A program made the position numbers and the translations under genes. Shown here piece after piece: positions 2,768-18,322 of a stretch of 64,000 nucleotides of DNA; positions within the stretch are counted from its first letter, which is position 1, and the number at the start of each line of letters is the position of its first letter. This DNA comes from Bdellovibrio bacteriovorus W (GTDB taxonomy: Bacteria; Bdellovibrionota; Bdellovibrionia; Bdellovibrionales; Bdellovibrionaceae), in contig CP002190.1 of NCBI GenBank assembly GCA_000525675.1, positions 1,860,001-1,924,000 on the forward strand, read 5' to 3'. A model generated the notes under the pieces. That model had not been told where the DNA came from. It made no database searches and saw only the letters and a list, made by a program, of their open reading frames with translations.

Positions 2768-3925
2768 ATGAACAATCGACATATGGAGTCATGGCGTCAA
2801 GTCTCCCTCTTTTACGATGGGGATAGTTTTTTCAACAGCCTCATCAGAGATATTCGTAACGCACAAAAAAGCGTCATGATTGAATCCTATATTTTTAACT
2901 GGGACCGCCTTACTCAAAGCCTCCTTCAAGAGCTCAAATCTGCCCGTAGCCGAGGGGTTGATGTCAAAATTGTCGTCGATGGCTTTGGAGCCTACTATCA
3001 AATCCCCCATTTGGACAAATGGTGCTCCGATAATCAGATTGAATTTCGAGTTTTCCATCCACTTCCCTACCCCATGCTATGGGCGCGAAATCTTTTCGTA
3101 AAATATGCTCTTTGGCGTGGCTCGTTCCTACGGAAAATCAATCGGCGCACTCATCGAAAGATGACGATCATTGATGAAGAAATTGCCTACGTGGGCAGTA
3201 TGAACTTCGCTGAATATCACTGTGCCGAATATGTAGGCGATGCTGCGTGGAGAGATACCGGAGCAAGGGTCATCGGCCCCCCAGTGCAAAGACTTATCAT
3301 GGCCTTTCAAATTTCATATTTAAGAACATACATCAAAGGCTTGATGTCGTGGGTGAACAGATGGAAAGACCGGTCCCCACCTTACTCTAACTTCTTACGA
3401 CTTAATACGACGCAAAAAATGCGTCGCCAAATGTATCAAGATCTTTTGCGAAAATTCTTAACCGCAGAGTCTCGCATTTATATCACCACTGCTTACTTTC
3501 TTCCCAAAAGAGCCATTTTGCGAGCGATGATCAAAGCTGCTGACAAAGGCGTTGATATCAAAATCATTATCCCTGGCAAGTCGGATGTCCCCCTCGTCAA
3601 GTGGGCAGCTTTTTTCATTATTCAATGGCTAGTAAAAAAGAAGATCTCCATCTATGAGTATCAACCGAGTATTTTGCATGCTAAGACGATGATTATTGAT
3701 AACGAAGCTCACGTCGGCTCGTTTAACCTTAATCATCGCAGCCTTCTACATGATTTAGAGGTGGAAGTGATCCTCAATGACCAGTCGAGCCTTGAGAGCA
3801 TGATCCATCAATGGAACGTGGACCTTAAAAACTCCAAACCGATGACTCAAGATGATGTCAAGAACCCCTCTTGGTTCAGTCGGCAGCTTTATCGCATTGC
3901 CTTCAAATTACGTTATATGCTGTGA
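2768..3925 (+). CDS. Phospholipase D family protein, cardiolipin synthase-like
   Basis: The protein has 385 aa and two HKD motifs, the catalytic signature of the PLD superfamily: HRKMTIIDEE near residue 128 and HAKTMIIDNE near residue 303. Each is followed by a GSxN segment (GSMNFAEYH and GSFNLNHRS). Two HKD motifs and the length fit bacterial cardiolipin synthases of the ClsB/ClsC type, which join phosphatidylglycerol units. I see no N-terminal transmembrane pair as in ClsA, so the ClsB-like form or a related phospholipase is favoured. The neighbouring ATPase gene follows 55 bp later. Confidence 0.85.
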   Translation: MNNRHMESWRQVSLFYDGDSFFNSLIRDIRNAQKSVMIESYIFNWDRLTQSLLQELKSARSRGVDVKIVVDGFGAYYQIPHLDKWCSDNQIEFRVFHPLPYPMLWARNLFVKYALWRGSFLRKINRRTHRKMTIIDEEIAYVGSMNFAEYHCAEYVGDAAWRDTGARVIGPPVQRLIMAFQISYLRTYIKGLMSWVNRWKDRSPPYSNFLRLNTTQKMRRQMYQDLLRKFLTAESRIYITTAYFLPKRAILRAMIKAADKGVDIKIIIPGKSDVPLVKWAAFFIIQWLVKKKISIYEYQPSILHAKTMIIDNEAHVGSFNLNHRSLLHDLEVEVILNDQSSLESMIHQWNVDLKNSKPMTQDDVKNPSWFSRQLYRIAFKLRYML

Positions 3926-3980: not shown

Positions 3981-4583
3981 ATGAAACCCTATGTAAAAAT
4001 CGTTGTCACAGGCGGCCCTTCGGGAGGCAAAACTACTCTCATTGATGCACTAAAAAAGGAACTTGGCCAAAAATGTGCCCTCGTTCCTGAAGCAGCTAGT
4101 ATTCTTTATCGAGGAGGTTTCCCTCGCGCCAAAGAAGACGTGACGACAAAGCATGCGCAAAGAGCCATCTACTTTACTCAAAAAGAATTAGAAGAGCTTG
4201 TTTGTCAGACTTCCCAAAAGCCCTTGATCGTTTGCGATCGAGGCTCCTTAGACAGTGCCGCTTACTGGCCTTACGATGAAGACAATTTTTTTAAGAGTTT
4301 AAACACATCTCGAGAAACCGAACTAGCTCGCTATGATTGGCTCATCCACCTGGATACAGCCCCGATTGAGTTTTACGATTCCACGAATCCCATTCGCACT
4401 GAGACCTTTCAAGAAGCATGGGACCTTAATGAAAAAATTAAAAATGCATGGAAAGGTCACCCTCGTCGTATTGTGATCTCTCACAACAATGACTTCCTTT
4501 CCAAAATGACAACATCTCTAGCTGTCATCCAAGCCATCCTCGCACACAAAAGTGCGGACGAAGTGAAGGAGCTTTTAAAATGA
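3981..4583 (+). CDS. P-loop ATPase, AAA_28/NadR-like kinase fold
   Basis: This 200-aa protein starts almost directly with a Walker A loop, VTGGPSGGKTTL at about residues 9-20. It also has a Walker B/lid-like LIVCDRGSLDSAAYWP near residue 82. This pairing is typical of the AAA_28 group of predicted ATPases and nucleotide kinases. The substrate is unknown. The stop overlaps the next start by four bases (ATGA), which implies translational coupling to the secreted protein that follows. Confidence 0.8.
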   Translation: MKPYVKIVVTGGPSGGKTTLIDALKKELGQKCALVPEAASILYRGGFPRAKEDVTTKHAQRAIYFTQKELEELVCQTSQKPLIVCDRGSLDSAAYWPYDEDNFFKSLNTSRETELARYDWLIHLDTAPIEFYDSTNPIRTETFQEAWDLNEKIKNAWKGHPRRIVISHNNDFLSKMTTSLAVIQAILAHKSADEVKELLK

Positions 4584-6481
4584 AAACACCCATCTTTGTC
4601 TTGAGTTTACTATTGAGCTTAAGCCTTCATGCTCAAACCACAGATGTAGACTCCTCTCAAACAGAAGATTCAATTACTTTCGAAGACTCTGCGGCAGCCA
4701 ATCCCCCTGCAGAAATCGATGAAACTGTCTCTTCTGAAGAAGCGACGTCTTCTACGAAAACTTCGCGCAAAAGCTCTCCGAAGTTAAAGCCACTTTACTT
4801 CCAAGCTGATAAAAATAACTTGCAAGTTTTACCTCAGCGCTTTGAGTACACTCTCTTAGATCAAAACCGCCTCAAGGTCGGAAATATCTTAATCGACACT
4901 ACTGAAATTCAATTTCAGATTGAAAGAACAAACGACAAGAAGAATCCTTATGCGATTCGCTTTCAATGGCCTGCAGGACTTATCAAAGAAGGACAACTAG
5001 CGATCAAGAATAATTCTGGGAAAGCTATCTTCAACCGAAATATCCAATCCAGTGACTTAAAGCTGAGTGGCGCCACTACGAATGAAGATGGCCTGATTGT
5101 TGAGACAGCTTCTCTGACTTTTTCAGATGTTGATGCCTCGATGATTGATGACATGAAGTACTTCCCGTTCATGACGTTTTGTATCTTCAAAGAAAGCTAC
5201 GAAACAAGATTGTATCTTTGCTCTAAAGAACTTTACTTAAGCTCTCAAGGTGGAGCGATGGTTATCAAATCGCGTGATTCAATAAAAAGAAACGCGAACA
5301 TTGACATCAACGGTAAGGTTGTCGGCAATCAAGGGATCATCTATCTCAACGATCGCAACGAGAACGTCGCTTTTAAAGCGCACACACAAACAGGGGCTTT
5401 CCTAGAGATTGAAACGCGCATGAAAGATGTGGATTTTAAGGACGTAGTTTTAAGTCCTGATGGTAAGAGAATCATTCTTACTGCTTCCGGCGCAAAACCT
5501 TTTGACACTCGCAACGTCAAAATTTTTTCAGAAGATGAGTGGCAAATAACCCTACCGCGCTCGCGTCCTGTTTTATTTCTAAAAGGTGAAGGCGACATTC
5601 CAATGCGCCAAGAGTTTTTTATTCGCGGTGTACTTCCCCGCGAGGGCAATCGTATCTTTGTAAGCCCACGCTCCCCTTCTAGAACTTACTCTTCGAGTCT
5701 TCGCCTAACGGGCGTTACTCCGAAAGGTATTGAGGCGAGCACTTTACCAAATGAAACCACTGCGGCTTTAAAAAAAACCAAAGGCCAACAGTTTCAATGG
5801 AACATTCATGATATTCCATCGGGAGTAAATAGCCGTCACTACCTTTTATCTAAGCATGGTGATGAGGCCTTCACCGTCGGCTATGACGTTTTTAGAGGAC
5901 GTCCATTTGTCTTTGATCTTAAGGCCAATTACCAAACTCCATCAGCCACGGGATACGCAAGCTTAGGTTTACAGTGGTGGATTGAAAACATGCTTGGCCT
6001 AGATGCTGACTGGGCACGCTTTCATTGGGGCTTGAGCGTTCGTTATGCAAGTCAAATCATGAAGAACGATGAAGCTCCAGAGTTTGATAAAATTAACTTT
6101 GAACTTTTATGGAGAGCCCAAGAAGGTTTCTATTTCGTAGATTCCACATGGGGACTCTACCTACCTGTTGAAATGTTGCAAGGAAGTGGTTCAAGCTTAA
6201 TGGCCTATGGAGCTGGTTTTTTCATGCACACGAAAACTCAAAATCCGATGTGGCGCAAGTGGGCTACTTGGTCTGAGCTCAAAGCGCAATACCTCTTCGC
6301 CGGAACTGGCGACGTGGAGCTAAGCTCTGCCTATCAGCTCGGGTGGACAGCCTATAAAAACATTTCATCTAATTGGTACTTCAGCTATGGCGCCTTCATC
6401 GAAGACTATAAATTCGATCCAGCCGCTCCAAAAGAAGAAATGCAAATCGGCGCCGAACTAGGCCTCCGCGCAACATTCTAA
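4580..6481 (+). CDS. Secreted/outer-membrane protein, paralogue of the 42.5-44.6 kb gene
   Basis: The 633-aa product has a signal peptide (core LSLLLSLSLHAQ), an acidic Ser/Thr-rich linker to about residue 70, and a beta-rich body. The C-terminal 170 residues alternate aromatic and polar residues like a barrel and end in a terminal Phe (ELGLRATF), as outer-membrane barrels do. It shares order and short motifs with the 686-aa protein at 42534-44594: KPLYF at the start of the mature domain, an Ile/Val-Gly-Asn strand, a TYS(S/D) segment and a final barrel-like region. I infer a duplicated family. The function is unknown. Confidence 0.8.
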   Translation: MKTPIFVLSLLLSLSLHAQTTDVDSSQTEDSITFEDSAAANPPAEIDETVSSEEATSSTKTSRKSSPKLKPLYFQADKNNLQVLPQRFEYTLLDQNRLKVGNILIDTTEIQFQIERTNDKKNPYAIRFQWPAGLIKEGQLAIKNNSGKAIFNRNIQSSDLKLSGATTNEDGLIVETASLTFSDVDASMIDDMKYFPFMTFCIFKESYETRLYLCSKELYLSSQGGAMVIKSRDSIKRNANIDINGKVVGNQGIIYLNDRNENVAFKAHTQTGAFLEIETRMKDVDFKDVVLSPDGKRIILTASGAKPFDTRNVKIFSEDEWQITLPRSRPVLFLKGEGDIPMRQEFFIRGVLPREGNRIFVSPRSPSRTYSSSLRLTGVTPKGIEASTLPNETTAALKKTKGQQFQWNIHDIPSGVNSRHYLLSKHGDEAFTVGYDVFRGRPFVFDLKANYQTPSATGYASLGLQWWIENMLGLDADWARFHWGLSVRYASQIMKNDEAPEFDKINFELLWRAQEGFYFVDSTWGLYLPVEMLQGSGSSLMAYGAGFFMHTKTQNPMWRKWATWSELKAQYLFAGTGDVELSSAYQLGWTAYKNISSNWYFSYGAFIEDYKFDPAAPKEEMQIGAELGLRATF

Positions 6482-6725: not shown

Positions 6726-8660
6726 CTAGCGTCGCTTGAAGAAGCCGGATACTACTTGCTTCAAATCCATATTAAAGACGTCTTGCTTCTTACTCTGGGC
6801 AGAAAGCATGGAGAGTTCTCGGCGGGCTGGAATAAATCCATTATCTAAGGCCACACTCTTTTCAAAAGATTTTTTCGCAGCCATAAGATCGCCTTTGGTT
6901 TTATTCAAAAGCCCTACTACGAATGGGAAAAGAGTATCGTATCTTTCATCTGGTGGAACTTGCATAAGCTCAAGCTCCACTTCTTTAAGAATAAATGTTT
7001 TACGAGCAGGATCGACAGCCCCTAGTTTGGCCCATGATTGGTAGATATGAAGCTGACTGATCTGCGGATTGAGCTGCTCGACTTCTTTAAGAAGCTGAAG
7101 AGCTTGGGCAAACTGATTCATATGCAGGGCTTTCTTTACGTCTTCCATTAAGGTGGTCGCACGCAATTTAGACTCTGCCTCAGTACGTTTTTGCTCTTTT
7201 TTAAAGTCGTCAATTTTTTGTGAGTCATTGGCAGCACTCACCGCACCTGTAACAAGGGCATTAACTTTATTCCAAACCTCAAAAGCTTCGGCCTGCGAGG
7301 GGCTGGGCTTTTCGCCAATCAGAGTTTTAAACTCTTCAAGTGCTACTTCAACACTGGCTCCGCCGGCCCCCATTTCGATGTAGTCTACAATCTCATAGGT
7401 ACTTTTATTTTGAATATCAGAATAGATTTTCTTTAAAACTTTGGCTTGCTCTTGGGGATTTGCATAACCTGCTCGTTGAGCAAAGACAATCAGACCTTTT
7501 GTTAAAAGCAAATGAATCGCTTTATAGACAGCAACTTCACTATAACCTTTTACATCAAGTAATTGAGTTAAAGTGATTTGATTGTTTAACTTTAAAGAGA
7601 AGCCTTCTAAGGACTTCAAAAGAGACATTTCAAAAATTGGATTATCATCAGCAAAGCTTGGGCTCTTAGCGATCACATTGCCTGACCACATAATATATAA
7701 AGACTTCAGCCAATTTAGAGAAATCTTAGAAGCAATCCAATCATGCAAGAAATAGGTCAGAGTGTCTGCATCGATACTTGGGCTGCTCATGTCTACTTCT
7801 GCTGAAGCAAAATTGACACGAATCTTATCCTCAACAATCGTGCGCACAAGACGAATGTTCATCTGCTCCATTAAGATAATATCGAAAGCATGAGGACTTA
7901 ATAAGTTATTCTGAATAAGATAATTACCAATACGGCGATTGTTTTTATCGCGCAATGCTGTCTGAACATCTTCAGGAAGCGCCCAACCACTTTGGATAAG
8001 CATTTCACCTAGGAAGGTTGATTTATCATCAACGTCAACGCCGACGATATTCCCGTTACAGAAAGAAACTCCTGAAACCGAACCATCAGCGTTATAGATA
8101 TTTAAGTACCCGCTGCTTTTAGTTTCAACCAGAAGAGAATATAGAAACGGCAAATCAAAACCGCTGACTTCTTCAACGGACTCGATCACTTTTCTTTTCT
8201 GACGAGCAGTGACCGTAGGATTAGCAAACATTTGATAGAGAAGCTTACGAGCATTGACCGTTTCTTCTTTTTTAGGCTCTGCTTTAGCTGCCTTCTTTAC
8301 AATCTTAAGAACTTGCTCCATTTCAAAGGGCTTCTTAAGAAATGCAACGGCGTCTGTACTCTGAGTCGCTTCTTGAATGAATTGATTATCTATATAGATT
8401 CCACTCATCAATACGACTTTGAACTTTAAATGCGGATAATTTGTACGAGCCTGCTTGATAAAATCCAACCCCGTCATTTGCGGCAGCAGACAGTCACAGA
8501 AAACATACTCAATATCAGTCTGAGAAGAAAGCACAGCATTGGCTTCATCTGGGCGATGCGCCAAATAAACGTGATGACCTTGTCGGGTCAGAGCTTCTTG
8601 CAAAGCCTTCGCGACAGTCTCGTCATCTTCTAAAACTAGAATCTTAGTTACTTTCTCCAC
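6726..8660 (-). CDS. Response regulator with PATAN/DUF4388-like and TPR regions
   Basis: The product has 644 aa. An N-terminal receiver domain (about 1-125) has the acidic pocket EDD at 11-13, the phospho-acceptor Asp near 56 (VFCDCLLPQMTG) and the conserved Lys (FLKKPF). The middle part (about 170-300) matches the pattern of PATAN/DUF4388 domains: a GYLNIYN strand, then FLGEMLIQSG and RIGNYLIQNN modules. The last 130 residues look like TPR helices. There is no DNA-binding domain, so it probably works through protein contacts. The start is GTG at 8660 with no clear ribosome site. A terminator separates it from the STAS gene upstream. Confidence 0.85.
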   Translation of the reverse strand: MEKVTKILVLEDDETVAKALQEALTRQGHHVYLAHRPDEANAVLSSQTDIEYVFCDCLLPQMTGLDFIKQARTNYPHLKFKVVLMSGIYIDNQFIQEATQSTDAVAFLKKPFEMEQVLKIVKKAAKAEPKKEETVNARKLLYQMFANPTVTARQKRKVIESVEEVSGFDLPFLYSLLVETKSSGYLNIYNADGSVSGVSFCNGNIVGVDVDDKSTFLGEMLIQSGWALPEDVQTALRDKNNRRIGNYLIQNNLLSPHAFDIILMEQMNIRLVRTIVEDKIRVNFASAEVDMSSPSIDADTLTYFLHDWIASKISLNWLKSLYIMWSGNVIAKSPSFADDNPIFEMSLLKSLEGFSLKLNNQITLTQLLDVKGYSEVAVYKAIHLLLTKGLIVFAQRAGYANPQEQAKVLKKIYSDIQNKSTYEIVDYIEMGAGGASVEVALEEFKTLIGEKPSPSQAEAFEVWNKVNALVTGAVSAANDSQKIDDFKKEQKRTEAESKLRATTLMEDVKKALHMNQFAQALQLLKEVEQLNPQISQLHIYQSWAKLGAVDPARKTFILKEVELELMQVPPDERYDTLFPFVVGLLNKTKGDLMAAKKSFEKSVALDNGFIPARRELSMLSAQSKKQDVFNMDLKQVVSGFFKRR

Positions 8661-8707
8661 AAATTACTTTTCGGATAAATATCTGAATATCTTAGCCTTA
8701 AATAAAA

Positions 8708-8735
8708 AAGTGAGGAGCTTTGGGGCTCCTCACTT
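8708..8735 (-). terminator. Rho-independent terminator after the STAS gene
   Basis: An 11-bp stem (AAGTGAGGAGC / GCTCCTCACTT) with a 6-base loop is followed on the minus strand by TTTTTTATTT. It ends the PP2C-STAS transcript before the response-regulator gene, which therefore needs its own promoter. Confidence 0.85.
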
Positions 8736-8761
8736 AAAAACCTAGACCTTAGATCTGTAAA

Positions 8762-9232
8762 TTACTTTTTCAAAAACTTGAAATACTTGCTTTCAATGAC
8801 GTCCATTTCCATTTCGTTCCCCTCTTCGTCTTTGACCGACTCTGGTGGACGCACGCCTGTATCGTCAAACTCGACTCCATAAGTAAACAAGATATTCTTC
8901 TCAGAGCCTGAATCGTCGTTATAATAAGGTACAAAGAAAGACTGAACTTTTCCATTAGCCGGCAAAAATCCATCCACCATATTGATCTGATCTACGATGA
9001 CTTTTGGACACTGCTGAAGAGTCACCTGTGCACCACCGGCTGTACCAATCCATTTGATCCACTCGCGAATTCCACATGAGTTGATTCCGCGCAAGCCACT
9101 TAGCTCCACTTCAATCGCAGAATTGCCAGAAATATCAAATTGGTTAAAGTCGACGTCTTCATCGATAGTACCCTTCATTTGCACTTGCAACTTATCAGCA
9201 CCTTTATTGAGTTTTACATCTAGCTTACTCAT
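8762..9232 (-). CDS. STAS-like anti-sigma-factor antagonist-type protein
   Basis: The protein has about 156 aa. Its first 100 residues follow the STAS pattern: beta strand, IEVELSGLRGINSCGIREW, then an alternating helix/strand. The Ser at residue 52 (NSCG) is where SpoIIAA/RsbV proteins are phosphorylated. An acidic C-terminal tail (about 100-156) is an extra. I chose ATG 9232 because AAGGAG lies six bases upstream; a GTG three bases earlier would be too close. It begins 10 bp after the PP2C phosphatase gene, the usual pairing in partner-switching modules. No anti-sigma kinase is adjacent. Confidence 0.75.
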   Translation of the reverse strand: MSKLDVKLNKGADKLQVQMKGTIDEDVDFNQFDISGNSAIEVELSGLRGINSCGIREWIKWIGTAGGAQVTLQQCPKVIVDQINMVDGFLPANGKVQSFFVPYYNDDSGSEKNILFTYGVEFDDTGVRPPESVKDEEGNEMEMDVIESKYFKFLKK

Positions 9233-9242
9233 CACTCACTCC

Positions 9243-11120
9243 TTAAGATAACTCTTCATCACGCTTTACTATAAAAAAAGTTACGTCATCAATCAAGGTC
9301 GCCCCTTGGCGATGGCCCTGAAAAGAACTCACAAATCGATCTACGGCGTCCGCAGCTCGAGGAAAGTCTTTGTTGGCCGCGATCAATGCTTTCACGAATT
9401 CACGTTCTCCCCATGCCTCTGCCTGAAGATTTTGAATATCTGGGATACCATCAGTATAGAAAAAGATTGAATCCCCTGGCTCTACTTGCACGGTTGTCTC
9501 TTCATAAACTGAATCTCGGTCCTGTCCCAATCTGGGATTATTCACTTCATTCAACGGAACGAGATCTTTCTTTTTTAAAGCTGAATCGCTTTTTTTAATC
9601 AAGAAGGGTGCTTCGTGACTGGCATTACAGTATACCAACTCTCCAGTTGTAAGATCAAATGACGCCAAAAAGAATGTCATCATGATACGTCCCTTAGAAA
9701 CATCGTAGATCGAACGATTCAGAAGTTCTAAAGCTTTTGACGGAGAAATATTCAGTCTTTCGATAATCGTTGAAGCAGACTTTGCCGCACTGGTAATAAG
9801 GGCTGCTGGTGCTCCGTGCCCCGTCGCATCCCCAATCCAAAGAAAGATCTTGTCTCCCATTTGACAGTAATGCCACCAGTCACCACCACACTCACTGGCA
9901 GGCTCATAGAAACCTGCAATCTCTAGATTTCCAATATGCGCTTGCGTATCAGGAAACAGGGTCTCTTGCACCGTCTTCGCGGTTTGCAGTTCCGATTCCA
10001 TACGCGCTTTTTCTGCAGTCTGATCCAGCAAGCGAGAAACTTCCGCCGCCATAATATTGAAATTCTCTGCAAGGCTTCCGACTTCATCATTGGATTTTAC
10101 ATCCACACGAATATTGAAGTCCCCTTCTGCCACTTTTTCGGTTGCAAAAAATAATTGCGTCAATGCTTGAGTCAAACCACTTGAAGCAAACAAGCTTAAG
10201 ATCACAGTTACAGAAATCAAGATTCCGAAAAAGATCAAAGATTTACGAATAAGAATTTGCACAGCTCCCAGAGCTTGAGCCTTCTCTACAGCTGTGACAA
10301 CGGTAAGGTCTCCAAAGCCTGCTTTAGAAAAAGAAACTAGAAGTTCTTTTCCGTCTCCAGCTTTTACAGTCTCTGCACCTTGCGCAACAGGGCTTCCTGT
10401 ATTCTTCAAAAAACTTGGAACGAAAAGTTCTTGGATTTTTTGTCCTTGAAGGACTTGAGGCCCAAATAAGATCGCACCTGTGCGATCGGTTAGATAAATC
10501 TTCTGAGATCCTTCTGTTTTAAACATCTCAGCTAATTCATTCATGCGCACTACCGTGATGAATACCGTATTGCGGGAGGTCGCTTCGTCAGTTACTTTTT
10601 CTAAGATCACCATGCGCTCATCACCAAAGGGTGACTTCACTGTGCGCTTATCAGCATCTACCTCCACTAGATAAGATGGCATCAGTGGGTGCAGGAACTT
10701 TAAAGTCTCATCGGCTCTTCCTGGAACTTTTTCCAAGAAGGCACTCATGCGCAAAGTCTCTGTTCCTTTTGAAGAAAAAACGATGATGGATTCTAAATCG
10801 TCTTCGTTTTGAAAAATAGAATCAGAGACAGGGCTGAACTTCTGCTGTAAGAGGAAATCTTGGAACACCGGCTTTGCTGCACCCAGCACGGAATTGAGCT
10901 GTGTCTTAATTTGAGTCGCCATCGCGCCCGACATGGTGCTTGAAGAATCAAAGACATAGGCAACCTTATCCTCTTCGAAAATCTTCAACGCCAGCACCAG
11001 ATAGATGGATAGCGTGATTAGAGGAAGTGACGTTAATAATAGTAAAATCTTATATCTTATTGATATGCCACGTTTTTTCACGACTTCAGTATGCCTTCGC
11101 CGCCTCACAAGCGAAAACAA
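9243..11120 (-). CDS. Membrane PP2C (SpoIIE/RsbU-type) phosphatase with HAMP
   Basis: This is a 625-aa sensor phosphatase. One membrane helix at about 25-48 and a second at about 290-312 frame a periplasmic sensor region. A HAMP domain follows (FNIRVDVKSNDEVGSLAENFN), then a coiled coil, then a PP2C-type SpoIIE domain with SECGGDWWHY, WIGDATGHGAPAAL and FYTDGIPD motifs for metal binding. It probably dephosphorylates a STAS protein, most simply the one encoded 10 bp downstream. The first in-frame start is TTG at 11120; nearby GTG codons are alternatives, so the start is uncertain. It diverges from the FecR-domain gene. Confidence 0.85.
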   Translation of the reverse strand: MFSLVRRRRHTEVVKKRGISIRYKILLLLTSLPLITLSIYLVLALKIFEEDKVAYVFDSSSTMSGAMATQIKTQLNSVLGAAKPVFQDFLLQQKFSPVSDSIFQNEDDLESIIVFSSKGTETLRMSAFLEKVPGRADETLKFLHPLMPSYLVEVDADKRTVKSPFGDERMVILEKVTDEATSRNTVFITVVRMNELAEMFKTEGSQKIYLTDRTGAILFGPQVLQGQKIQELFVPSFLKNTGSPVAQGAETVKAGDGKELLVSFSKAGFGDLTVVTAVEKAQALGAVQILIRKSLIFFGILISVTVILSLFASSGLTQALTQLFFATEKVAEGDFNIRVDVKSNDEVGSLAENFNIMAAEVSRLLDQTAEKARMESELQTAKTVQETLFPDTQAHIGNLEIAGFYEPASECGGDWWHYCQMGDKIFLWIGDATGHGAPAALITSAAKSASTIIERLNISPSKALELLNRSIYDVSKGRIMMTFFLASFDLTTGELVYCNASHEAPFLIKKSDSALKKKDLVPLNEVNNPRLGQDRDSVYEETTVQVEPGDSIFFYTDGIPDIQNLQAEAWGEREFVKALIAANKDFPRAADAVDRFVSSFQGHRQGATLIDDVTFFIVKRDEELS

Positions 11121-11192
11121 AAACTCATATAACTTAGCCCTAAGTCCATAAAATATTTACGGAACTCTCCGATAAGCACAACGAGGAGAATC

Positions 11193-13355
11193 ATGTCTAA
11201 TTTTGCAAAAACTGAGAAAATCATCTTTGGTATTGCACTGGCGCTGCTGGTGGCGTTCTCGTATTTCCTATACGACGACTCTCTGTTGTTTCCAAAATCC
11301 AACACTCAATCTCTAGAACTCATTGGAAATGTTTCTTTTTCTCAAAACGATGTGCGCAGAAAGAATCTAGATACCTTTAGCTGGCTTCCCGCTTCCCGTA
11401 AAGACAGCGTTTTCCAAAACGACTCTATTTATACAGGCGAAAGATCTGAAGCTGTTATTAGTTTGCAAGACGGATCACAGATTCGCATCCAACCGAATTC
11501 TTTGATCAACTTGAACTTCAAAAATGGTCAAATGAATCTCGACCTTCGATATGGTCAGTTAACTGGAGAGCTTCAAGCGCAATCCTCTATCCTTGTAACC
11601 TCAGGAAAAGAAGAGTTCAAACTTGAAAGTAAATCCAACGGCGAAAAGTCCAAAGTTCAATTTAAAAAATCCCACAGTGGAAATGTTAACTTGAAACTTA
11701 TTAGTGGACAGGTTCAATACATCGACAAAAAGCAAAGTGCTGTGAAGGCACTTCCGCAAAACAGTACGGTTGCTGTGACTCAAAAAGGCGAAGTGAAACA
11801 ACTTGAGAAACCAATTCTACAGCTTCTTACTGAAAACAATAAGAAGTGGCTCCGCCTCTCACCTCAAGATCCCCTTCCATTTCAATGGGACTCAAAGGGA
11901 AGTGTTGCTCGCTATGAGTTTGAACTTTCTTCTAGTCAAGACTTTCACTCTGTCGTAGCAAGCCAGACTACCGCGAATAAAAACCTTGCCTTCACTAACG
12001 AAGTTCCTTCCGGAGACTACTTCTGGAGACTGAAAGCTTATGATGCTAATGGCGAAGTCAGTGCTGTGAGTGAATCTCGTCAGGTAGCTATTCATCAGCT
12101 AACAAGTCCACAGATCGTTTCCCCCGTTGCCGAGTCCGTTTTAAACTTTGAAGTTAAAGAAGAACCAAATAAGACGCTGTCCCAGAACTTACAAGTTCGC
12201 TGGCAAGCGCACCCCATCTTAACTCATTTCCAATGGCAAATTGCGAATGATCCTGAGTTCCAAACAGTGGTTCATCAAGGTCAAACTACTCACCACGATG
12301 TGACGACTCCTTCTCTACCGTCGGGCCAGTATTGGATTCGCGTCACAGGTCGCACGCAACAAAATAAAACGACGGAGTGGTCTCCAGCGGTGAGCTTCCA
12401 ATTGGATCTCGTAGCCCGCAAAGAAGAGCGCCCCGATGCACCTATCCTTGTTAAAAAGAATATCGATTTCAAAGTGCCAACGGACGAAAGAGCGCCCGCT
12501 TCTCTACAGTCACCACAAATCGAATGGAAGAAAGTTCCAAAAACAAAGGGTTACACTCTGCAAATTGCTAAAGATGCAAACTTTGCAAGCCCCGAGAAAT
12601 ACGAACTCAACTCGAACCGTGTTCAGTGGAGCCAATTCAAGCCTGGAAAATACTATTACCGCGTTTTTGCCAAAGGTGAAAATGACTTAGTCAGCCCTTC
12701 TAGCGAAGTCGGTACACTGGAAGTCAACGTCGATGGCATTGTTCTCCACCCCGTGAAAAACATCCATGCTGTCGGCGAATCGCCTGAACCACGTAATGTG
12801 GATGTTCAGTGGTCTGAAGTGCCATTTGCTAAAAAGTATATTCTACAGATTGATACTAACGAAAGCTTTAGCAACGCGAAAAACATGGAGTTTGAAAGCT
12901 CCCATGGAAATATTGAACTCCCTCAACCAGGCAAGTACCACATTCGCGTGCAGGCAATGGATGAGAATCAACAAAGCTTAACGAGTTTCTCGAAAGCCAC
13001 AGATGTTCTCTATTCATTCCGTTCCCCTCTTATGTCTCCAGCACTTATGGAGCCATTCAACAATGCCTCTATTTTCCTACAAACAGAGATGGAGCCCTTT
13101 GTATGGTTAGAGTGGAAGAAGGTCGACAACGCCTCTACCTACCGCATTGAGGTTTCAGATAGAGCTGACTTCTCGCGAACTCTGATTGCGCAGTCAATTC
13201 AGTCCAATCGCTTCCTGATTAAAGAGAAAATACCTCTCGGAAAAATCTACTGGCGCGTTCGCGCTGAATCCCCTACGGATTCAGAATTTTCAGAGTGGAC
13301 AGAAAAACGCGAATTCACTCTCTATCACCAAAAGAATGAGACTTTTGTAAAATGA
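11193..13355 (+). CDS. FecR-domain membrane protein with fibronectin-like repeats
   Basis: The product has 720 aa. An N-terminal membrane anchor (about 9-27) is followed by a FecR-like beta region (about 75-150; ERSEAVISLQDGSQIRIQPN and LDLRYGQLTGEL). Five beta repeats of about 90 residues come next, each with a W..V..A..Y.LQI..D..F core and a closing G.YYWRV.A strand, resembling fibronectin type III or sugar-surface domains. AGGAGA stands five bases upstream of the ATG. The stop overlaps the next gene (ATGA), so it is co-translated with the histidine kinase and is probably its envelope-facing partner. The partnership is inferred from gene order only. Confidence 0.8.
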   Translation: MSNFAKTEKIIFGIALALLVAFSYFLYDDSLLFPKSNTQSLELIGNVSFSQNDVRRKNLDTFSWLPASRKDSVFQNDSIYTGERSEAVISLQDGSQIRIQPNSLINLNFKNGQMNLDLRYGQLTGELQAQSSILVTSGKEEFKLESKSNGEKSKVQFKKSHSGNVNLKLISGQVQYIDKKQSAVKALPQNSTVAVTQKGEVKQLEKPILQLLTENNKKWLRLSPQDPLPFQWDSKGSVARYEFELSSSQDFHSVVASQTTANKNLAFTNEVPSGDYFWRLKAYDANGEVSAVSESRQVAIHQLTSPQIVSPVAESVLNFEVKEEPNKTLSQNLQVRWQAHPILTHFQWQIANDPEFQTVVHQGQTTHHDVTTPSLPSGQYWIRVTGRTQQNKTTEWSPAVSFQLDLVARKEERPDAPILVKKNIDFKVPTDERAPASLQSPQIEWKKVPKTKGYTLQIAKDANFASPEKYELNSNRVQWSQFKPGKYYYRVFAKGENDLVSPSSEVGTLEVNVDGIVLHPVKNIHAVGESPEPRNVDVQWSEVPFAKKYILQIDTNESFSNAKNMEFESSHGNIELPQPGKYHIRVQAMDENQQSLTSFSKATDVLYSFRSPLMSPALMEPFNNASIFLQTEMEPFVWLEWKKVDNASTYRIEVSDRADFSRTLIAQSIQSNRFLIKEKIPLGKIYWRVRAESPTDSEFSEWTEKREFTLYHQKNETFVK

Positions 13356-15304
13356 TAAACAAGACTTCACTCTTTGACACCTTACTAGAACCCGTCTTTG
13401 TTCTTAATAAAGAACAAAAGATTACCTACTGCAATGAGGCCGCCTCATTGATGGCTGGGCTATCTATTCGTAAGATGACTCGTGGGATGAAGTTCCTAGA
13501 AGTTTTTTCATTTAATGAAAGCATTGAAAGCCTTGAAAGCTTAGAGTCTATTCAAGACCCTACTCCGTATAAGGAACTCAACTTTAAAAATGGCGACGGC
13601 CTTGAGGGAAAGGTACAAATCACCCTTCAACCCTATGCCACAGAAAACGACAGCCAATGGATTGTTTTCTTTCGCGACGTCACCCTTGAAGAGCGCCTTC
13701 AAAAGAAATACCGTGCTGAGCTTGAACAAAAAGAAGATGTGATTTCTGATCTCGAGAAAGCCAAAGCTCAACTTGAAGACTATAGTAAAAATCTAGAATC
13801 CATGGTGGCTAAACGCACGGAAGAACTCTCGACATTAAACCAAACACTTTCAGCTCTTCTAGACAGTCTTGGTCAGGGCTTTTTCATTTTTCAAGAAGAT
13901 GGAAATATTCTCAATGTTTCGTCAAAGGCTTGCGAATCTGTGCTTGAAACAAATCCGCAAGGTCAAAAGATTTGGGATGTTTTAAAACTTCCAGCCAACA
14001 AAGTGGATGGGTTTCAAAAGTGGATGCTCACCGTTTTCCAAGAGCTTCTGCCGTTTGAAGATCTGGCTCCTCTGGGACCTGAACTTTATCCGCACACCCA
14101 AGGCAAACACGTTGCTCTAGAGTACCACCCGCTTCGCAACTCAGAAAATCAAATCAAAGGTGTTGTGGTTGTTGCCTCGGATATCACCTCTCTTGTTGAG
14201 GCTCGCAAAACAGCTGAACAAGAAAAAGAACACGCTAAATTGATTATTAATATGATCAAGAGCAAGCGTGAAATTCAAAGATTTATCTCTGAAGCAGATT
14301 CGCTATTGGCGGACCTCAATGAAGAACTACAACACGATGATCCTCAATTTGACCACGAACTCGTGTTTAGAAGTCTACACACTTTAAAAGGTGGCGCCGC
14401 TCTTTTCTCAATTCTCCCACTGGCCGAGTGCTGTCATCAGGGTGAGCAAATTCTATCTGAGCTTCATCATCAATGGAGTCTACCAGGACATATTGCCCTG
14501 AAAGGTAAAGTCTTTGAAATTCGTGATGAGTTTGAAAAATTCCTTAGCGAAACAAAGGCCATTATCGGAAAGAACAATGTCTCTGATGAACGCCAAGTCG
14601 AAGTGGCAATTAGTAAACTCAACACCATTGCGAAAAAACTTGGCAACTTGCCTGGCGGTGGTCCTCTTGCACAAGAACTTCTTTTAGATCTTGCGATGGA
14701 GCCCGTTGAGAACTACTTCACTCCATTTCGAGAGTCTCTGCCTCGCTTGGCGGAGAAACTTGGAAAAAATCTGGGCCATGTGGAGATCAACACCCACGGC
14801 ATCGGAGTGATTCCCGAAATTTACAATCCGCTTTTCTCGACATTTATCCATGCCTTTAGAAACTCTTTAGATCATGGCTTAGAATATCCAGAAGAACGCA
14901 GTCTTTTAGGAAAAACTATCGAGGGCACTCTTAAACTTGAGGCCTCGCTACTCCAAGAGCCTTCTGGGTCTTGGTTGCGCATTGAAATCAAAGACGACGG
15001 ACGTGGAATTGATCCTGCGATTATTCGCCAAAAATTAGAAAAAAATGGTCTTTCTAGCCAACACCTCTCTGATGAGGATGTGCTTCAACATATTTTTGCC
15101 AGCCAGTTCTCAACCCGCGAAGAGGTCACTGATATTTCTGGACGCGGTGTGGGCATGGACGCACTCAAAGTAGCAGCAGAACAGCTCCACGGGCGTGTTT
15201 GGGTGGAATCAGCCCTGCAAAAAGGAACGACTATTTGCATCCAAGTCCCCTACATCACAGAATTTGTCGATAAAGAGAAGAAAAAGTCACAAGAAGCTGC
15301 ATAA
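13352..15304 (+). CDS. CheA-like Hpt histidine kinase with two PAS domains
   Basis: This 650-aa soluble kinase has a PAS-like domain (about 1-110), a coiled coil (115-160) and a second PAS (160-275). An Hpt domain follows with its phospho-His in LHTLKGGAAL near residue 343. A CheA-type ATPase domain comes last, with N box HAFRNSLDHG (about 505), G1 DDGRGID (about 548) and G2 GRGVGMD (about 597). Unlike chemotaxis CheA it lacks a CheW-like C-terminal domain. The phosphate target is not fused, so the nearby receiver proteins at 6726-8660 or 17912-18322 are possible acceptors. Confidence 0.85.
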   Translation: MINKTSLFDTLLEPVFVLNKEQKITYCNEAASLMAGLSIRKMTRGMKFLEVFSFNESIESLESLESIQDPTPYKELNFKNGDGLEGKVQITLQPYATENDSQWIVFFRDVTLEERLQKKYRAELEQKEDVISDLEKAKAQLEDYSKNLESMVAKRTEELSTLNQTLSALLDSLGQGFFIFQEDGNILNVSSKACESVLETNPQGQKIWDVLKLPANKVDGFQKWMLTVFQELLPFEDLAPLGPELYPHTQGKHVALEYHPLRNSENQIKGVVVVASDITSLVEARKTAEQEKEHAKLIINMIKSKREIQRFISEADSLLADLNEELQHDDPQFDHELVFRSLHTLKGGAALFSILPLAECCHQGEQILSELHHQWSLPGHIALKGKVFEIRDEFEKFLSETKAIIGKNNVSDERQVEVAISKLNTIAKKLGNLPGGGPLAQELLLDLAMEPVENYFTPFRESLPRLAEKLGKNLGHVEINTHGIGVIPEIYNPLFSTFIHAFRNSLDHGLEYPEERSLLGKTIEGTLKLEASLLQEPSGSWLRIEIKDDGRGIDPAIIRQKLEKNGLSSQHLSDEDVLQHIFASQFSTREEVTDISGRGVGMDALKVAAEQLHGRVWVESALQKGTTICIQVPYITEFVDKEKKKSQEAA

Positions 15305-15393: not shown

Positions 15394-17268
15394 ATGGCAA
15401 AACAAGTGCAGAGTTTTAATGCAGAAATCAAACAACTTTTGGATATCGTTATCCACTCTCTTTATTCCCATAAAGAAATTTTTCTTAGAGAGCTCGTATC
15501 TAACGCATCTGATGCCATCGATAAACTGAAGTTCGAGTCTTTAACACAACCAGGTCTTCTTCCTGCTGGTTGGGAACCTGCGGTTCGCCTTGAACCAAAC
15601 AAAGAGGCAAAAACTTTAAAAATCATCGACAACGGTATCGGCATGAGCCACGACGATGTTGTGAACTTCATCGGCACAATTGCTCGCTCTGGCGCCAAAG
15701 CTTTCACACAAATGAATGAAGAACTAAAGAACCGCCCTGAACTGATCGGTCAATTCGGTGTTGGTTTCTATTCTGCATTTATGGTGGCTGACAAAGTCAC
15801 TTTGCATACTCAAAAAGCCGGCCACAATGACGGTGTTGTTTGGGAATCTACGGGAGACGGCACCTACTCTATCGACAATGTTCCTCGCGCCGAAGGTGTG
15901 GGCACAACAATCACGCTTCATCTGAAAAGTTTTGCTGAAGACGAAGAAGTTCAAGATTTCACGGATGAGTGGGTTCTTAAGTCTTTGATCAAAAAATATT
16001 CAGACTTCGTTGCGTTCCCAATCAAAATGAAAACCGAGAAAGAAGATGAGACTCTAAACTCGCAAAAAGCTCTTTGGTTGAAAAACCCATCGGAAGTGAC
16101 AGCGGAAGAACATAAAGAGTTCTACCAACACCTCTCCCATGACTTCAATGAGCCAGCAAAGACTATCCACTACAAAGCCGAAGGCACAATGGAGTTCAGC
16201 GCCTTGATGTATATTCCAAATAAGAAACCTTGGAATTTCAACATGCGCGACACGGAATACGGTCTCAGTCTTTATATCAAACGCGTTTTCATCATGGCTG
16301 ATTGCAAAGAGCTTCTGCCTCCTTACCTACGTTTTGTAAAAGGTTTGGTGGATAGCAGTGATCTTTCTCTAAACGTCTCTCGTGAGATTCTACAACAAGA
16401 TCGTCAAGTAACGCAGATTCGTAAAAACGTCACAAATAAGATCTTAGCATCTATGAAAGACCTTCTTTCTAAAGATCGCACAGCCTATGAAAATTTCTGG
16501 AGCGAGTTTGGAGCAACTCTTAAAGAGGGCGTTCCAAGTGATTCTGGCAATAAAGACAAGATCACAGATCTTCTTTTATTCCACTCGTCTCACTCTGACA
16601 AAATGACTACTTTGGATGAATACATCACTCGTATGAAAGAGAATCAAAAAGATATCTTCTTCATCACAGGTGATACTTTATCTCAGGTGAAAAACAGTCC
16701 TTACTTAGAAAAGCTCATGGCTAAAGGCTTTGAAGTTCTTTTCTTGATTGATCCTGTGGATGAATGGGTGATGAACTCTCTTCCTGAATACAAAGAAAAG
16801 AAACTTCAATCGATCACCCAAGCAAACTTGGATCTAGACACTGAAGAAGAGAAAAAAGCTAAAGAAGAAGAAATTAAAAAAGCTTCTGAAAAGCTTTCTC
16901 CTCTGCTTGAGACGATGAAGAAGTCCCTCGACACGCACGTCAAAGACGTGGTGATTTCAGATCGCTTAACGACAACTCCTGTGTGCCTTGTATCATCAGA
17001 AAATGATCCATCTGCTCACATGCAACGTCTTTTGGCGCAAATGGGTCAAGAGTACAACCAACCAGTTAAGAGAATCCTAGAGATCAACCCTTCCCACCCT
17101 GTGTTTGAAAAAATGCTTCAAGCAACGGCTGAGCAACAAACTCAATGGGCAGAGATTCTCTATAATCAGGCTCTTTTAAATGAAGGCTCTGCAATCCCAG
17201 ATCCTGTGAAGTTTTCGCAACAAGTAGCAAACCTCATGGTCCAAGCTGCCGACAACAAAGCCCACTAA
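15394..17268 (+). CDS. htpG: HtpG, Hsp90-family chaperone
   Basis: The 624-aa length is typical for bacterial Hsp90. The GHKL ATPase domain is complete: LRELVSNASDAIDKL with the catalytic Glu/Asn, DNGIGM, and GQFGVGFYSAFMVAD. The middle domain has the conserved SREILQQDR segment with the Arg that touches ATP, followed by the C-terminal dimerisation region. GGAG lies about ten bases before ATG 15394. It acts in the cytosol on client-protein folding. A terminator lies just after it, so it is probably monocistronic. I see no CIRCE or clear heat-shock promoter. Confidence 0.97.
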   Translation: MAKQVQSFNAEIKQLLDIVIHSLYSHKEIFLRELVSNASDAIDKLKFESLTQPGLLPAGWEPAVRLEPNKEAKTLKIIDNGIGMSHDDVVNFIGTIARSGAKAFTQMNEELKNRPELIGQFGVGFYSAFMVADKVTLHTQKAGHNDGVVWESTGDGTYSIDNVPRAEGVGTTITLHLKSFAEDEEVQDFTDEWVLKSLIKKYSDFVAFPIKMKTEKEDETLNSQKALWLKNPSEVTAEEHKEFYQHLSHDFNEPAKTIHYKAEGTMEFSALMYIPNKKPWNFNMRDTEYGLSLYIKRVFIMADCKELLPPYLRFVKGLVDSSDLSLNVSREILQQDRQVTQIRKNVTNKILASMKDLLSKDRTAYENFWSEFGATLKEGVPSDSGNKDKITDLLLFHSSHSDKMTTLDEYITRMKENQKDIFFITGDTLSQVKNSPYLEKLMAKGFEVLFLIDPVDEWVMNSLPEYKEKKLQSITQANLDLDTEEEKKAKEEEIKKASEKLSPLLETMKKSLDTHVKDVVISDRLTTTPVCLVSSENDPSAHMQRLLAQMGQEYNQPVKRILEINPSHPVFEKMLQATAEQQTQWAEILYNQALLNEGSAIPDPVKFSQQVANLMVQAADNKAH

Positions 17269-17797: not shown

Positions 17798-17921
17798 AAG
17801 TTCGTCAAAAGGGTTCGGATGCAAGGCGGAGGTTGGCTCTCGCAGCGGAGGCGTGCTCAATGCACGTCGGAGCGAGAAAGCCTGCCGACAACGAAGTCAG
17901 CCGGGCCCTTTTCACGAACTT
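17798..17921. repeat. Convergent-gap palindromic element, copy C (subtype 1)
   Basis: The outer arms are AGTTCGTCAAAAGGG and CCCTTTTCACGAACT. The inner hairpin GCGTGC / GCACGT sits inside a CTCGC / GCGAG stem. The right arm overlaps the last codons and the stop of the CheY gene: the stop TGA read on the minus strand lies within the element. Confidence 0.85.
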
Positions 17922-18322
17922 TTGTTGTGTTTGGCGTAGGCGCCTTTAAGCTTCTCTTCTAATATTTTCGCAGAAAAAGGCTTCACGATATACTGAGAGA
18001 CTCCAGCTAAAACAGCCTCGGTCACTTGGTCTCTTTCAGATTCAGATGTTAAAAGTACAAAGGGAAGTTGTGCCCACTCTGCGGTGGCGCGAACCTGTTT
18101 TAAAAGTTCTAAGCCCTTCATGTTGGGCATATTCCAATCGGAAATAACTAATTGAATTTGGCGATCTGTTTGATTGTTCTCAATCAAAACTTTCAAGCCC
18201 TCTTGCCCGTCTGCAGCTTCATAAAGATTAGAGTATCCCATTGCACGCAAAGTGTTTTTCACAAGATCGCGAATAGAGGGCATATCATCAATTATTAGAA
18301 TTCGTGTAGACGTTGGAAACAT
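17912..18322 (-). CDS. CheY-like single-domain response regulator
   Basis: The 136-aa protein consists of one receiver domain. It has IIDDMPS with the acidic pair near residues 12-13, the phospho-Asp at residue 62 (VISDWNMPNMKG), a Thr/Ser switch (LLTSES) and the conserved Lys (YIVKPF). This is the CheY layout, without an output domain, so it acts by docking to partners such as a flagellar switch or a kinase. The last codons and the stop lie inside a palindromic repeat element. It has no chemotaxis neighbours here; the CheA-like kinase 2.6 kb upstream is a candidate partner. Confidence 0.9.
   Translation of the reverse strand: MFPTSTRILIIDDMPSIRDLVKNTLRAMGYSNLYEAADGQEGLKVLIENNQTDRQIQLVISDWNMPNMKGLELLKQVRATAEWAQLPFVLLTSESERDQVTEAVLAGVSQYIVKPFSAKILEEKLKGAYAKHNKSS

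Follow-up and report, generated by a model that had tools for sequence, protein, structure and literature searches.

Candidate partner switch joined to a CheA-like kinase in a conserved gene unit of Bdellovibrio bacteriovorus W

A 64,000-nucleotide stretch of the Bdellovibrio bacteriovorus W genome (the window; G000:C1:1860001-1924000, from a genome assembled as one 3.0-Mb contig) carries, at positions 6726-15304, genes for a PATAN response regulator, a STAS-fold switch protein, a membrane PP2C phosphatase, a FecR-domain protein and a CheA-like Hpt kinase. Comparison of gene order across relatives confirmed that these genes form one real, conserved signalling unit. We consider it somewhat better than an even chance that the unit is a partner switch of the SiaABCD or Rsb type joined to a CheA-like two-component branch, with the kinase as the output enzyme. 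Partner switching with such an output would, on the best reading of the sequences, be a new version of a known switch type, and would add histidine kinases to the outputs that partner switches can have. Bdellovibrio and its kin invade other bacteria through the envelope, and most of their sensory circuits are poorly understood; for the sensing of prey or surfaces, the unit offers a concrete candidate.

Gene layout and linkage across relatives

All five genes were located by an open reading frame (ORF) check and Pfam, and domains were called from Pfam and NCBIfam profile scans of the locus ORFs. The genes for STAS (8762..9235, minus strand) and PP2C (9243..11120, minus strand) diverge from those for FecR (11193..13355, plus strand) and the Hpt kinase (13352..15304, plus strand) across a 72-bp intergenic region between PP2C and FecR (11121..11192), and the PATAN gene (6726..8660, minus strand) adjoins them. 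A first-pass annotation, made from the sequence alone, had described this arrangement, and coordinates and Pfam bore it out, with the STAS protein identified by AlphaFold, Foldseek and VIA. The FecR stop and the kinase start overlap by 4 bp in the window, as they do in 15 of the 21 listed loci with both genes, which points to probable translational coupling. The same annotation had counted two receivers. The PATAN receiver stood, whereas the second proved to be a gene it had missed, encoding a CheY-like single receiver (17912..18322, minus strand; Pfam) beyond htpG. This gene belongs to the unit because it adjoins the kinase gene in relatives: the two are spaced by 0-60 bp at 16 of the 19 listed loci that carry them. 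In the window, htpG (15394-17268) separates the two.

When 118 genomes of the class were searched with each protein, at thresholds of 0.001 (STAS, FecR) or 1e-20 (kinase, PATAN, PP2C), matches were obtained in 84 genomes for STAS, 99 for FecR, 89 for the kinase, 105 for the PATAN regulator and 87 for PP2C. Among the 84 STAS-bearing genomes, the PATAN match lay no more than 12 kb from the best STAS place in 68, the kinase match in 63, PP2C in 61 and FecR in 52. All four lay that close in 42 of the 84 and in every one of the 24 genomes of the window's genus (window included), counting one best STAS place per genome, with weaker paralogues not all entered; contig ends can hide linkage, for example in G113, G108 and G035. 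A separate scan of named genomes covered 80 loci, many on short contigs; at the 79 with a scored STAS ORF, PP2C was present at 49, PATAN at 48, the kinase at 44, gene X (described below) at 43, CheY at 40 and FecR at 37. These counts agree with the earlier proposal of a single system conserved in relatives, and the two divergent sides of the cluster do not occur apart in most of them.

The sides themselves had been drawn wrongly, however. All 20 genomes of family f2 have the kinase within 12 kb of STAS, directly following it, whereas PP2C is near STAS in 7, elsewhere in 12 and not recorded in 1. STAS is thus retained beside the kinase, and PP2C beside FecR, and the natural pieces are therefore X-STAS-kinase-CheY-PATAN on the one hand and the FecR and PP2C pair on the other. 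Matches to PP2C and FecR are at most 5 kb apart in 63 of the 67 genomes with both.

The STAS switch, its phosphatase and the lost kinase

The 8762..9235 product gave no Pfam match at E 0.1 and no NCBIfam match at 0.01, so the STAS label was at first unproven. Its AlphaFold model (predicted local distance difference test, pLDDT, 95.6) has as its best Foldseek match the SpoIIAA/RsbV-type antagonist 1thn_B (E 2.1e-4) and reaches a VIA Z of 11.7 against anti-sigma antagonists across 96-97 residues; these matches span residues 1-100, and the C-terminal extension of 57 residues has no assigned fold. A profile of 53 relatives ranked the anti-sigma factor antagonist TM1442 first in the PDB, weakly (E 0.014). 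The modelled structure confirmed a STAS fold of the SpoIIAA/RsbV antagonist type. The putative phospho-acceptor Ser53, in the motif INSCG, is kept in 104 of 104 STAS rows, including those from loci without X, and NSxG is found in all but a few; the rows used for residue conservation exclude fragments under the score or length limits and include near-copies. Ser53 lies at a helix start, as does the phosphorylation site of SpoIIAA. Some distant STAS members have a C-terminal extension with cysteine pairs that look zinc-ribbon-like by eye, and these pairs are missing from the window STAS. The window genome also holds a second, lone STAS paralogue (G000:C1:2128122-2128670; L073 5123-5671, minus strand), which retains a phospho-serine motif, NSLG, and adjoins an aconitase-like gene (by eye), with no phosphatase or kinase of the unit next to it.

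The phosphatase combines a dCache-like periplasmic part (under the Pfam cut-off), a HAMP domain and a SpoIIE/PP2C domain (2.9e-36), and its closest NCBIfam model is SiaA, at 63 bits against a cut-off of 700. The metal-binding residues do not vary across the 82 PP2C rows, nor across the 45 that come from X-less loci, a set that includes loci with short flanks. Together with the conserved STAS serine, this fits the earlier suggestion that the phosphatase may reset the STAS protein. The FecR protein has an N-terminal membrane anchor by eye, a FecR domain (4.7e-7) and Fn3/Ig-like repeats (Pfam). In G030, G038, G050, G061 and G099, about 100 of its residues (around 514-609) are unmatched, and one repeat is apparently missing or diverged.

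In f2 and elsewhere, a gap of approximately 700-870 bp between PP2C and STAS is filled by a further gene, here called X. Pfam barely detects its product (HATPase_c_2, E 0.0043, in one member), but an alignment of 41 rows has invariant E150, N154, D203, G206, G236, G238 and G240, which correspond to the GHKL ATPase boxes N, G1 and G2. A model of X (pLDDT 92.8) matched SiaB (6kko) at 2.8e-4 and SpoIIAB at 3.7e-4 in Foldseek, with a VIA Z of 12.7 against SpoIIAB over 130 residues, whereas the alignment searched against the PDB by sequence alone gave noise and a weak SpoIIAB match (E 0.97). X is thus predicted from its model to be a SpoIIAB/SiaB-like GHKL kinase. Upstream of X, f2-type loci (L130, L134, L135, L138, L140 and others) carry runs of two or three genes of 350-430 amino acids.

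A nine-row X profile (A1) matched 82 of the 118 genomes but found X at the locus in none of the 24 of the window's genus. The A1 matches in that genus are mostly partial and to a different protein, with the exception of second modules in G034 and G092 and of weaker copies in G085. Of the 19 listed loci that lack X but carry PP2C and STAS, 18 show the latter two overlapping or separated by at most 36 bp, a clean deletion of X. In a quick kinase tree the window falls in a nine-row X-less clade (99% in the Shimodaira-Hasegawa-like approximate likelihood ratio test, SH-aLRT), and several losses of X are required overall. The absence of the usual anti-sigma kinase, noted in the first-pass annotation, therefore holds at the locus but is not an original feature. 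That such a kinase was never part of the system was rejected, as X is present in relatives and its loss in the genus is secondary.

Since the STAS serine and the PP2C metal-binding residues are invariant despite the loss of X, a kinase in trans is implied, and STAS is likely to be phosphorylated by one in the window's genus. The candidate is an unlinked X-like protein with a cyclic nucleotide monophosphate (cNMP)-binding domain, a receiver-like stretch in which, by eye, the acidic pocket typical of receivers is missing, and a GHKL domain similar to X. The protein has 476 amino acids in G028, and elsewhere in the genus most genomes carry frames of 477-557 for it. In the window genome, where it lies at G000:C1:2631676-2634482 (L176 677-3482), A1 has no other match. 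If it is the trans kinase, cNMP would be coupled to envelope sensing. Among the 13 HATPase_c_2 matches of the window genome, the best eight were scanned, and all eight carry HisKA and are histidine kinases.

The kinase branch, the proposed mechanism and its alternatives

The kinase has the order PAS-PAS-Hpt-HATPase_c. A PDB search matched the ATPase part to CheA P4 (E 5e-37) and the Hpt domain to CheA P1, and Pfam found no CheW, no receiver and no CheA dimerisation domain; the earlier description of an Hpt kinase without a fused receiver was accurate. All 54 kinases compared keep His343 of the Hpt domain and the N and G boxes, and all 46 CheY rows keep D13, D62, T92 and K114. The 6726..8660 product consists of a receiver (2e-15), a DUF4388/PATAN domain (1.5e-5, 25.5 bits against a cut-off of 25) and a TPR-like C terminus. 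Every one of the 49 near full-length rows, in which one protein appears twice, keeps the receiver residues D12, D56, S86 and K110; the nine further rows are receiver-less proteins or fragments. Genus g2 has no full-length kinase match, and the linked PATAN proteins of six of its genomes begin past the receiver. This joint loss, in one lineage, makes it likely that the Hpt kinase signals to the PATAN regulator, as had been proposed. Natural losses of this kind, that of X and that of kinase plus receiver, offer ready-made tests of signalling partners. In L151 (6445-9402), L152 (4109-7111) and L169 (645-3191), a single reading frame joins a receiver-less PATAN protein to a barrel-like protein with a signal peptide; L156 and L158 encode the latter in an adjoining gene of its own.

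The enzyme beside PP2C and STAS is the Hpt kinase in most Bdellovibrionia, but it is exchanged in other lineages. A PAS-nucleotide cyclase directly follows STAS in L167 (4528-5667), and HisKA-type kinases with a receiver gene lie beside PP2C and STAS in L182 and L183, from another class. In a lineage without the Hpt kinase, a PAS-GGDEF gene lies between FecR and PP2C; Pfam identifies it in L157 (3899-5278; B. qaytius), and in L160 (3947-5320) the assignment comes from size and position alone. The STAS protein is proposed to act on the kinase because these exchanged neighbours resemble the pairing of SiaC with a diguanylate cyclase and that of HsbA with HsbD.

In the proposed mechanism, the FecR/Fn3 protein and the Cache-HAMP phosphatase would form an envelope sensor. 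The phosphatase would dephosphorylate Ser53 of STAS, and X would re-phosphorylate it in many relatives; in the window's genus a trans kinase, most likely the unlinked cNMP-binding GHKL protein, would replace X. Unphosphorylated STAS would then bind and control a PAS-bearing enzyme, here the Hpt kinase and not a sigma factor, and the kinase would phosphorylate the CheY-like protein and the PATAN regulator as output, perhaps at pili or the envelope. A broader version, which we put forward tentatively and consider less probable, is a phylum-wide envelope-sensing switch in which STAS may drive exchangeable enzymes (CheA-like, HisKA, diguanylate or nucleotide cyclase). Its own kinase would have been deleted in Bdellovibrio, and STAS phosphorylation in trans would have passed either to the cNMP-binding GHKL protein or to the Hpt kinase, whose GHKL domain would then act on serine.

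In the HptB-HsbR-HsbA-HsbD system a receiver-PP2C-kinase protein links the phosphorelay and the STAS protein, whereas here PP2C is a membrane sensor without a receiver and the Hpt domain lies inside the kinase. What the two have in common is that Hpt phosphorelay, STAS protein and signalling enzyme are connected, HsbA acting on HsbD (PMC5085249). The SiaABCD system of Pseudomonas aeruginosa (PMC7647112, PMC8457831) comprises a HAMP-PP2C membrane phosphatase, a GHKL kinase, a STAS-like phosphoprotein (SiaC) and a signalling enzyme in one unit, with SiaC acting on a diguanylate cyclase and with Thr68 as the phosphosite. Here the output would be a CheA-like kinase instead, the phosphosite a serine in NSxG, and a FecR/Fn3 partner is added while X is missing in the window's genus. 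X matches SiaB by fold and PP2C matches the SiaA model weakly, and neither STAS nor X matched the curated SiaC and SiaB families in Pfam or NCBIfam.

To the SpoIIE/RsbU-SpoIIAA/RsbV-SpoIIAB/RsbW systems the unit is alike in its STAS fold with a conserved serine, its GHKL fold and its phosphatase class; it differs in that no sigma gene was present among the scanned locus ORFs and in that the window's genus lacks the RsbW-type kinase gene at this locus. The kinase shares the P1 Hpt domain and the P4-type ATPase with CheA but has two PAS domains and neither a CheW-like (P5) nor a Pfam CheA dimerisation domain. The PATAN regulator shares a receiver and PATAN/DUF4388 with the cyanobacterial PATAN-CheY regulators PixG, PixE and LsiR (PMC7690835), but has its receiver at the N terminus and a TPR-like tail, and a possible pilus link is drawn by analogy. 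A search of largely non-subscription literature on Bdellovibrio STAS/PP2C, kinase-phosphatase pairs, FecR and DUF4388/PATAN found no description of the locus among the papers it listed.

Several points weigh against the proposed mechanism. The contact between STAS and kinase is inferred solely from gene order, and a possible pilus output is drawn from other, cyanobacterial PATAN proteins. The joint loss of kinase and PATAN receiver concerns a single lineage and hence one evolutionary event. Some kinase-less genomes have an unlinked, receiver-bearing PATAN regulator, so PATAN does not depend on the Hpt kinase everywhere, and a PATAN protein tree, which took 20 unlinked loci and left out L199 (no ORF), does not settle the orthology of the linked copies of families f1 and f2. 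The window genome has four Hpt domains in total, and other phosphorelays could therefore feed the CheY and PATAN receivers too. The module tolerates the absence of X, which has been lost on more than one occasion. In the window genome itself, an IS3-type element, its transposase recognised by eye, splits the trans-kinase candidate into pieces of 133 amino acids with the cNMP domain and 363 with the GHKL part. Finally, the linkage counts rest on hand-copied positions, some taken from loci L090 and L091, and on fragmented assemblies.

An unlikely alternative is that two separate systems are co-located, the phosphatase and STAS acting as a switch on an unlinked sigma/anti-sigma partner and the Hpt kinase, CheY and PATAN forming their own pathway. 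The separation of the PP2C match from STAS and kinase in 12 of 20 f2 genomes speaks for it, as does the G059 locus, which keeps STAS, kinase and PATAN regulator without PP2C and FecR. On the other hand, the constant association of STAS with the kinase in f2 means that the split cuts through the partner switch and not between two systems. The 4-bp overlap of FecR and kinase in most loci of the window's family, and the recurrence of STAS-kinase adjacency in another class with other kinase types, also argue for a single unit.

It is somewhat less probable still that STAS became an unphosphorylated adaptor after the loss of X, with PP2C targeting another phosphoprotein. The lack of a dedicated kinase at the locus throughout the genus and the broken state of the best trans candidate in the window genome are consistent with this, but the retained serine, the retained PP2C metal-binding residues and the tight PP2C-STAS spacing at X-less loci weigh against it. 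Least probable, and in our view doubtful at best, is an ordinary RsbU-RsbV-type switch whose target is a sigma factor, in which the Hpt kinase would control either the phosphatase or FecR. In its favour are the known occurrence of FecR domains in sigma regulation and the resemblance of X to the anti-sigma factor SpoIIAB and of STAS to SpoIIAA; yet the scanned locus ORFs lack a sigma gene, and the STAS neighbour is a signalling enzyme in several lineages.

Neighbouring genes

Next to the PATAN gene, and convergent with it within the family, lies a gene for a secreted protein with a barrel-like C terminus by eye (4580..6481, plus strand). Homologues occur at 30 loci, its membership in the unit is uncertain, and its product has no Pfam match over the cut-off. 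The 499-amino-acid secreted proteins of g2 were considered as homologues of this 633-amino-acid ORF and rejected, with no match at E 0.1. Two further neighbours recur in the family, a gene of 200 amino acids (window 3981-4583; matches at 19 loci) and a PLD-family gene (2768-3925; 17 loci).

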